From: a virus
Direction: 5' to 3' (one strand)
IMG/VR virus record: IMGVR_UViG_3300030098_001269
Location: 1 to 20,546 of that record
Length of the DNA: 20,546 nucleotides
The notes under the pieces are model-generated. The model ran no database searches. It was not told where the DNA came from and worked only from the letters and a program-made list of their open reading frames with translations. Shown piece by piece: positions 12,605 through 15,295 of the stretch (its first letter is position 1; every line of letters starts with the position of its first letter). Position numbers and translations under genes: made by a program.

Positions 12605-15295
12605 ATGGGAGCAACATATACAAGACAGTCTACATATACTGATGGTGACGTAATACAGGCATCAGATACTAATAATGAATTTGACCAAATAGTAAATGCG
12701 TTTGCTGCAAGTACAGGACACACACATGATGGCACTACTGCTGAAGGTGGTCCTATAACTAAACTGTTAGGTAATTCACTAACATTTGGTACAGGAGCAG
12801 ATACAGATATAGCAATTACATTTGATGGTAATACATCAGATGGTGTTCTTACTTGGATGGAAGATGAAGATTACTTTCAGTTTAGTGATGACATATTAAT
12901 ATCTTCTAACGAAAAGCTACAGTTTAGAGATACAGCTATATATGTTAATTCATCAACAGATGGACAGTTAGATGTAGTAGCAGATGGTGCAGTATCTATA
13001 GATGCAGGTACAGATATTATATTAGATGCAGATGGTGCAGATGTATTATTAAAAGATGGTGGTACTACTTATGGTAGTTTAACAAACAGTAGTGGAGAAC
13101 TTGTAATTAAGTCAGGTTCTACTCCTACAACTGCTATGACATTTAGTGGTGCTAACGTAACCTTTGCAGGTACAGTAACAATAGGTAGTGCAGGTATATC
13201 TGAAGCAGAACTAGAGATACTTGATGGTGCTACAGTTACAACAGATGAACTTAATGTTCTTGATGGTATAACTTCTACAGTAAGTGAACTAAACATTGTA
13301 GATGGTGATACAAGTGCTACATCAACTACAGTCGCAGATGCAGATAGAGTTGTATACAATGATGCAGGAACTATGAAGCAAGTTGCTGTTACAGACTTAG
13401 ATACATACTTTTCTGCTACATCAAAGACATTAACAAATAAAACTTTAACAACACCTGTAATTACAGAGATTGACTCAGGTTCTACTATAACATTAGATGC
13501 TACCACAGACATTGTTTTAGATGCTGATGGTGGTAATGTAATATTTAAAGATGATGGCACATCAATACTTGATATAGCAAATAACTCAAGTGATGTAGAA
13601 CTAACAGTTAGCACAGCAGATAAAAACTTTGCTATTAAAGGCACAGATGGTTCTAGTGCAATAACTGCACTTGACATTGATATGGCACTAGCAGGTAAAG
13701 CTACTTTTAGTGGTGACGTAGTTGTAACAGGTGACTTGACTATATCAGGTGATGACCTAACAATGGGTACAAATACTAGTGGTCATATCATGGTTGCAGA
13801 TGGTACTAACTTTAATCCTGTAGCAGTATCAGGTGATGTAACTATAGCATCAAATGGTGCTGTAACAATAGCAAATGGTGCAGTAGAAACTGCAATGGTA
13901 AATGCAAATGTTATTACAGGACAAACTGCTGAAACATCTCTTGACACATCTAATGATACAATACTTATACATGATGACAGTGCAAGTGCTTTAAGAAAAA
14001 CTACATTAGCATCTATATCATCTGCTCTTGGTGGTATTACAGATGTTGTCGCTGATACTTCACCACAGTTAGGTGGCAACTTAGATGTAAATGGTAATGA
14101 TATTGTTACTACATCTAATGCAAATTTAGAACTAGCACCAAATGGCACAGGTAAAGTTGTTGTAAAAGGAAATACTAATCAAGGTGCTATAACATTAAAT
14201 TGTGAAAGTAATAGTCATGGGCAAACTATAACTGCTCAACCTCATTCTTTAGGAGTTACAAACACATTAACATTACCTGCAGGTGCAAATCAAGAAATAG
14301 TAGGAACTTTAGATACTCAAGATGTATTGAATAAAAATTTAATTACTGCTGACTCTCATGCAGGTAAATATGGAAGTTCAAGTTCTCCTATTACCTTTAC
14401 AGTTACTGTAGCATCTAAATCAGGACATCCCTATCAAGGTGATGGTAGTGGTAACGCTTATGTCATAAACGGAGTTCAAGCACCTGCTTTAACATTACAT
14501 GGTGTAGACAATGTAACATCTGACTCAGGATATTATTATAGATTTGACCAATCTGATAGCAGTAATGGTGGACACCCACTAAGATTTTACTTAGATGCTG
14601 ATAAGACCACAGAATACACAACAGGAGTTACAACAAACGGCACTCCGGGAAGTAGTGGTGCATATACACAAATAGATGTTGATGAAGACACACCAAGCAT
14701 ATTGTATTACCAATGTACTAATCATGCCTACATGGGTAATTATGCAATAGTTCTTGGTTCTAATAAAATAAATCATACTGAAGCTCTTATTAGTTTTCCA
14801 ACAACAACAGGCACATTAGTAGGCACAGGTGATACAGGCTCAGTCACAAATGGTATGTTAGCAGGTAGTATAGCTGACAGTAAATTATCTACTATATCTA
14901 CAGCAGGTAAAGTTGCTCTAAGTGCATTAGAGATTGATGGTGGAACAGATGTAGGTGCAGATTTAGTAGATGCCGACTTAATTATTGTTGATGATGGTGC
15001 AGGTGGAAATAATGAAAAATCCGAACTAACAAGAGTTAAGAAATATATCTACTCTGCTATGTCTGGAGATGCAACTGCAAGTGATGCAGGAGCATTAACA
15101 ATAGCAAATGATGCAGTTGAAAGTGGTATGTTAAATGACAACGTAATTAGTGGTCAAACAGAATTAGCATCAGGACTAGCAACAACAGATGAACTACTTG
15201 TAAGTGATGCAGGTACAATTAAAAGAATGGATGTAAGTGTTCTAACAGCAGTTACTGACGATAGTGCAACAGCGTTAGCTATAGCACTAGGATAA
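12605..15295 (+). CDS. Long tail fibre protein with a cupredoxin-like domain
   Basis: The 896-aa protein starts directly after the previous stop, with AGGAG and AAGG upstream. The N-terminus (YTDGDVIQASDTNNEFDQIVNAF, then GHTHDGT at 38-44) is a fibre start seen in marine phages and may dock to the tail. The middle is a repetitive beta shaft: ITFDG..., DAGTDIILDADG repeated as DATTDIVLDADG, three LDG/VDG units at 203-234 (EILDGAT, NVLDGIT, NIVDGDT), and TLTNKTLTTPVITEI. Residues 410-471 and 821-880 are related copies of one module. Residues about 596-718 resemble a cupredoxin (see separate entry). It is composed largely of Ala, Thr, Asp and Gly, with few Lys or Arg. It is probably a trimeric side or central fibre; receptor binding is inferred. 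The promoter for the next block overlaps its end. Confidence 0.82.
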   Translation: MGATYTRQSTYTDGDVIQASDTNNEFDQIVNAFAASTGHTHDGTTAEGGPITKLLGNSLTFGTGADTDIAITFDGNTSDGVLTWMEDEDYFQFSDDILISSNEKLQFRDTAIYVNSSTDGQLDVVADGAVSIDAGTDIILDADGADVLLKDGGTTYGSLTNSSGELVIKSGSTPTTAMTFSGANVTFAGTVTIGSAGISEAELEILDGATVTTDELNVLDGITSTVSELNIVDGDTSATSTTVADADRVVYNDAGTMKQVAVTDLDTYFSATSKTLTNKTLTTPVITEIDSGSTITLDATTDIVLDADGGNVIFKDDGTSILDIANNSSDVELTVSTADKNFAIKGTDGSSAITALDIDMALAGKATFSGDVVVTGDLTISGDDLTMGTNTSGHIMVADGTNFNPVAVSGDVTIASNGAVTIANGAVETAMVNANVITGQTAETSLDTSNDTILIHDDSASALRKTTLASISSALGGITDVVADTSPQLGGNLDVNGNDIVTTSNANLELAPNGTGKVVVKGNTNQGAITLNCESNSHGQTITAQPHSLGVTNTLTLPAGANQEIVGTLDTQDVLNKNLITADSHAGKYGSSSSPITFTVTVASKSGHPYQGDGSGNAYVINGVQAPALTLHGVDNVTSDSGYYYRFDQSDSSNGGHPLRFYLDADKTTEYTTGVTTNGTPGSSGAYTQIDVDEDTPSILYYQCTNHAYMGNYAIVLGSNKINHTEALISFPTTTGTLVGTGDTGSVTNGMLAGSIADSKLSTISTAGKVALSALEIDGGTDVGADLVDADLIIVDDGAGGNNEKSELTRVKKYIYSAMSGDATASDAGALTIANDAVESGMLNDNVISGQTELASGLATTDELLVSDAGTIKRMDVSVLTAVTDDSATALAIALG
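14390..14758 (+). other. Cupredoxin-like domain inside the long tail fibre
   Basis: Residues about 596-718 read VTVAS..., NAYVINGVQAPALTLHGVD, YYYRFDQ, GGHPLRFYLD, then after a loop DEDTPSILYYQCTNHAYMGNYAIVLG. His657 (14573-14575), Cys704 (14714-14716), His707 (14723-14725) and Met710 (14732-14734) are placed like type 1 copper ligands: the C-x2-H-x2-M spacing is that of amicyanin, and the 47 residues from first His to Cys match plastocyanin. The strand-rich layout also fits. Copper binding is a prediction; the fold could be kept without metal. Confidence 0.6.

Follow-up and report, generated by a model that had tools for sequence, protein, structure and literature searches.

A predicted blue-copper-type cassette in the tail fibre of an HMO-2011-like phage and in its marine relatives

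The tail fibre encoded by the DNA analysed here (the window, an IMG/VR virus record of 20,546 bases) carries an inserted cassette that contains a cupredoxin-like domain with the four residues of a predicted type 1 copper site. The fold of this domain, the conservation of its ligands, its nature as a cassette and its spread among marine phages were established by computation. We infer that the fibre of this HMO-2011-like phage holds a blue-copper-type module that would be loaded with copper after lysis and would bind the host surface with its metal-shaped end, and we assign this reading a probability of about 0.6.

The carrier is an open reading frame of 896 aa located at 12605..15295 on the + strand. 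Residues 495-763 matched the tail fiber protein family PHROG 30742 (E 4.3e-40), an entry that is silent on both copper and fold. The portal protein of the contig showed 81% identity to that of Roseobacter phage CRP-1 and 77% to that of Puniceispirillum phage HMO-2011, which indicates a phage of the HMO-2011 kind, and its contact with the host is probably made through the 896-aa fibre. An HxH motif (H39-T-H41, within GHTHDGT) was found near the N-terminus of the fibre at residues 39-41 (window 12719-12727). Motifs of this kind have been connected with the binding of iron in fibres, T4 gp37 among them.

The domain was delimited with AlphaFold2, Foldseek and VIA-align to about 125 residues (approximately residues 594-718; 14384..14758, + strand). 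The AlphaFold2 model of residues 591-720 had a pLDDT of 92.3, a pTM of 0.87 and nine strands, and the ligand loop lay within a block of mean pLDDT 97. As numbered in the model, H67 precedes strand 69-72, C114 closes strand 109-114, and H117 and M120 stand in the loop ahead of strand 123-127. The predicted layout is thus that of a cupredoxin, with one His by the start of a strand, the Cys at the end of a strand and the second His and the Met in the loop that follows. In a Foldseek search against the PDB, rusticyanin ranked first (E 1.2e-3, probability 1.0), followed by multicopper oxidases (laccases), nitrite reductases, amicyanin and other cupredoxin-fold proteins. Almost all of the best 50 matches were copper proteins or cupredoxin-fold relatives, at modest TM-scores that mostly fell between 0.40 and 0.49 of the query length. 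With VIA, the best 50 matches were copper proteins without exception; the domain aligned to the N-terminal domain of a Hyphomicrobium nitrite reductase (2dv6) with a Z of 8.8 and an rmsd of 3.0 over 100 residues, and to rusticyanin with a Z of 7.5. These two closest solved folds share only 13-20% sequence identity with the domain and, unlike it, are soluble electron carriers or enzyme domains. A lipoprotein relative from Marinifilum, modelled separately, reached a pLDDT of 94.2 and lay nearer still to the copper proteins: rusticyanin was matched by Foldseek with E 8.7e-5 and by VIA with a Z of 10.0, and 2dv6 with a Z of 10.1 and an rmsd of 2.1 Å over 91 residues. The first-pass annotation had proposed a cupredoxin strand order from the letters of the fibre alone. 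The prediction agrees with it: the model is a beta sandwich of the Greek-key cupredoxin type, and its nearest solved structures are cupredoxins.

A shared fold by itself shows no function, so the argument is carried by the fold together with the ligand set. Translation of the reading frame placed His657, Cys704, His707 and Met710 where the first-pass annotation had put its four ligands. His657 (14573..14575), the first predicted copper ligand, stands directly before the strand PLRF; Cys704 (14714..14716), the predicted thiolate ligand, closes a strand; and His707 (14723..14725) and Met710 (14732..14734), the second predicted His ligand and the predicted axial ligand, lie in the loop, all on the + strand. 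When 42 phage relatives were aligned, no columns were invariant except Y645, F647, H657, C704, H707 and M710, and the same six remained invariant after bacterial relatives were added, at a mean column identity of 37%. Tyr645 and Phe647 (within 14537..14545, + strand) belong to the strand before the first His and probably serve in core packing. That the six invariant columns include all four ligands indicates that the pattern goes beyond chance. The C-x2-H-x2-M spacing, likened earlier to that of amicyanin, occurs once in the 896-aa fibre, as CTNHAYM, and is the constant part across the family. The 47 residues between His657 and Cys704, which had been read as the plastocyanin spacing, were confirmed in the window fibre and did not hold as a family feature, since the gap ranged from 31 to 65 residues across copies.

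Among the 262 distinct copies from all collected loci, 248 contained the complete His-Cys-His-Met set, a fraction inflated by the fact that some of the collection scans used peptide patterns including the Cys-His-Met loop as bait. This bias does not affect the phage records collected with tblastn. The remaining copies were either truncated at contig ends or degenerate, lacking the Cys together with one or more of the other ligands. No copy of the 262 had the Cys without the other three ligands, so the four positions are not independent of one another, and a Cys always comes with the complete set. Cys704 is normally the sole Cys of the domain, a second one being found in only 6 of the 248 intact copies. 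Codon usage in these intact copies was mixed at His657 (CAT 128, CAC 120), Cys704 (TGT 182, TGC 66) and His707 (CAT 158, CAC 90). The use of both synonymous codons at each His and Cys indicates that it is the residues that are kept and not the DNA.

These results bear on the simplest alternative, a plain Ig-like display domain in which His, Cys and Met were kept by chance or for packing. A relative in phage MED4-213 was automatically annotated as an immunoglobulin-domain protein, PF07686 was noted in the P-HM2 carrier, and a fibre is itself a fitting carrier for such a domain. However, no columns are better conserved than those of the four ligands, a copy that has the Cys always has the other three as well, and an Ig-like fold was rejected on the ranking of folds, in which copper proteins came nearest and Ig folds far lower. 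We regard this explanation as extremely unlikely. The ligand set also raises the question of a redox-active domain, which would transfer electrons or take up copper or an oxidant at the cell surface during infection. Amicyanin, an electron-transfer cupredoxin, has the same ligand set and the same C-x2-H-x2-M loop, and the strict retention of all ligands in the phage domain would suit such a role. However, no redox partner or enzyme was recognisable near the domain within the window, and no path for electrons is evident in a fibre placed at the tail end; a redox role is very unlikely on these grounds.

The link of the domain to known cupredoxins was also followed at the level of sequence. For comparison we used 19 genuine cupredoxins with PF00127, mostly from cyanobacterial genomes. 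When the alignment of phage and bacterial members was compared with this set by hhalign, the four ligands were aligned, His657 with the cupredoxin His among them (P 3.9e-5), and the score was 33.0. The best of 150 column shuffles scored 21.7, and the reversed profile 19.3. After the four ligand columns were masked the score fell to 14.5, which is chance level; the sequence likeness to cupredoxins thus lies mainly in the ligand motif, and the evidence from the fold is separate. Pseudoazurin ranked first in PDB profile searches (E 0.019 and 0.0015), over the Cys-His-Met loop. PF00127 (Copper-bind) gave no match above its cut-off for the window domain or for any of the 42 phage members. In single-sequence searches, Pfam gave no match for the fibre and only sub-threshold matches for the domain, and phmmer against the PDB returned chance-level matches only. 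NCBIfam gave nothing meaningful. The At5g54830-like domain PF25489, a family whose name was taken from a plant protein, was matched by the window domain at 13.9 bits, under its cut-off of 27 bits. Weak matches to it were obtained for 25 of the 42 phage members, and the cut-off was passed by two bacterial members, L235 (29.6 bits) and L246 (32.8 bits). With amicyanin, pseudoazurin and plastocyanin the domain has in common the beta sandwich, a His before a strand and a Cys-x2-His-x2-Met loop after another strand. It differs from these short-loop cupredoxins in the segment from the first His to the Cys, which is variable, and in being housed inside a phage fibre.

Distances between scaffold motifs showed that the domain lies in an insert, a cassette of some 174 aa (residues ~560-733; 14282..14803, + strand; the edges are approximate). 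From NCESNSHGQ to GTLVGTGDTGS the window fibre spans 195 aa, whereas 25 related fibres without the domain span 21 aa. Two fibres (L307 and L309) kept the scaffold NCESNSHGQ...TNTLVLPTDAGTLVGTGDTG and had no domain; the upstream motif varied among the 25 domain-free fibres and was mostly YCES-NAHAQ. The insert is thus dispensable for the fibre shaft. An optional cassette, found moreover in carriers as varied as T7-type fibres and T4-type gp7, follows the pattern of a display module, and judged from sequence it is probably a displayed module of copper type that binds a surface.

Copies without ligands were found in several cyanophages. The first copy was degenerate in gp7 of P-HM2 and MED4-213, as was the second copy in S-SSM5, and further degenerate copies were found in S-RIM2, ACG-2014b, S-WAM1 and PSS2. 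In S-WAM1 the first His was kept and the Cys loop was lost, which indicates that loss of the ligands can be stepwise. The persistence of ligandless copies in cyanophage gp7, S-WAM1 and PSS2 suggests that the fold can also serve a purpose where no metal is bound. The T4-like baseplate wedge protein of Synechococcus phage S-SSM5 (L288, 343-3696) contained, in order, an intact cupredoxin copy, a YHYH domain (PF14240, E 1.2e-16) and the degenerate copy. In Cyanophage PSS2, gp080 (L291, 1480-1818) was a stand-alone ligandless domain of 112 aa annotated as a baseplate wedge subunit.

The first-pass annotation had suggested that a metal might lock the structure of the fibre, and the invariance of all four ligands could be taken in favour of a structural copper comparable to the iron in the T4 gp37 tip. 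The existence of 25 fibres of the same scaffold without the whole cassette (which bears on the cupredoxin domain only) and of ligandless copies argues against it, and the site, judging from the monomer model, appears to lie inside one domain and off the trimer axis. A lock of this kind is highly improbable, although copper could still stabilise its own domain.

We prefer the reading of the cassette as a copper-loaded, surface-binding module. In this mechanism the domain would be exposed on the fibre and would be loaded with extracellular copper once the host has lysed. Bound metal would set the shape of the sandwich at its His-Cys-His-Met end, and contact with the host surface, either weak or specific, would be made by this end or by one of the faces, in the manner of Ig-like and lectin-like display domains. 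The display role is drawn from the presence and absence of the cassette in one scaffold and from the range of its carriers, which include T7-type fibres, gp7 and a surface protein with lectin domains.

Searches with tblastn showed how widely the domain has spread. The window domain found 34 phage records, all of them marine (phages of Prochlorococcus, Synechococcus, Pelagibacter and Methylophilales), in which the annotations of the carriers read tail fibre, gp7 baseplate wedge, structural protein or hypothetical protein. With the S-B68 member as query, 178 records were found, almost all of them cyanobacterial, Pelagibacter, Methylophilales or marine phages by name. Two scans of IMG/VR for relatives of the domain each yielded at least 600 stretches. 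Genomes of bacteria and archaea contributed 73 loci with the domain. Some of these were disguised phage contigs, for example L240, in which the domain is carried by a fibre with a T7 N-terminus, and others, from Marinifilum, SAR86 and Arcticimaribacter, looked cellular. The domain thus belongs to a large marine family. In phages that are unrelated to one another its carriers are tail fibres, T7-type fibres among them, baseplate-wedge proteins such as T4-type gp7, and other structural proteins; in bacteria they are lipoproteins and giant surface proteins. In Candidatus Arcticimaribacter forsetii (L204, 3-10340), a repeat protein of 3446 aa contained a cupredoxin-like domain together with DUF11, DUF7507 and C-type lectin domains.

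The single-domain proteins of Marinifilum and SAR86 were hydrophobic over a stretch at the N-terminus and had a lipobox-like Cys. Their loci were L235 (4884-5339), L231 (4884-5414) and L225 (4782-5264). From their sequences it is possible that they are undescribed small blue-copper proteins of marine bacteria. These lipoprotein-like relatives point to a setting that is competent for copper, and they bear on the alternative that the cupredoxin fold holds another metal (Zn, Fe or Cu(I) only) or a free reactive Cys. The identity of the ligands alone leaves the metal unfixed, and proteins assembled in the cytoplasm, where there is very little free copper, would seldom meet it. Against this, His-Cys-His-Met in the cupredoxin arrangement is the classical copper ligand set, a free reactive Cys would not demand both the His residues and the Met, and the bacterial relatives resemble lipoproteins of the envelope or surface. 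We consider this alternative unlikely.

Prochlorococcus, Synechococcus and Pelagibacter, which are hosts of the phages concerned, are among the most abundant bacteria of the ocean. The first-pass annotation had raised the use of a host metal-uptake system. It might be supposed that a host receptor for copper uptake or copper chelates recognises the fibre-borne copper and would then serve as the phage receptor (a Ferrojan or Trojan horse with copper). Copper is usually buried in a type 1 site, and the family spans phages of hosts as unlike as Prochlorococcus, Pelagibacter and Methylophilales. This makes the proposal decidedly improbable, although the marine-only distribution among phage records and the predicted metal site on a fibre would accord with it and an iron version has been published for HxH fibres (PMC11705849).

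If the site is a real type 1 copper site, the adsorption of these phages would be linked to the copper chemistry of seawater, and a classical electron-transfer fold would be placed on the exterior of a virus. It would also account for a recurrent domain whose annotations have so far gone no further than tail fibre, baseplate wedge or hypothetical. To our knowledge, few cases of metals in phage fibres have been described, mainly iron in HxH shafts. The iron-binding HxH fibres are the nearest published idea; T4 gp37 and the fibre of Alteromonas phage R22Y resemble the window fibre in that a metal in a phage fibre has been proposed (PMC11705849). In HxH fibres, however, HxH pairs of the trimer coordinate the iron, whereas the His-Cys-His-Met site of the window domain is predicted within one domain. 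No description of a cupredoxin domain in tail proteins of phages was found in the literature searched, which covered few subscription papers and no bioRxiv preprints. Two candidate prior descriptions were set aside: one concerns viral nirK, a separate auxiliary gene (PMC8115048), and in the other copper refers to grids only (PMC10665884). Apparently a known fold and site occur here in an undescribed place, and an earlier description elsewhere is possible.

A broader reading is tentative and rather doubtful. It holds that a mobile blue-copper domain sits on the virions of several unrelated marine lineages, that it takes up seawater copper and that the metallated site attaches the phage to its host, which would make copper a factor in infection. 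If so, phage particles would act as a copper ligand, and copper supply would be a factor in phage infection in the ocean. Matches to the model of the phage domain were also obtained among giant viruses. Three BFVD entries (A0A481Z6J5, A0A481Z7Q7 and A0A481YY19), small 'beta-sandwich proteins' of pithovirus- and marseillevirus-like viruses, matched it with a query TM-score of about 0.7.
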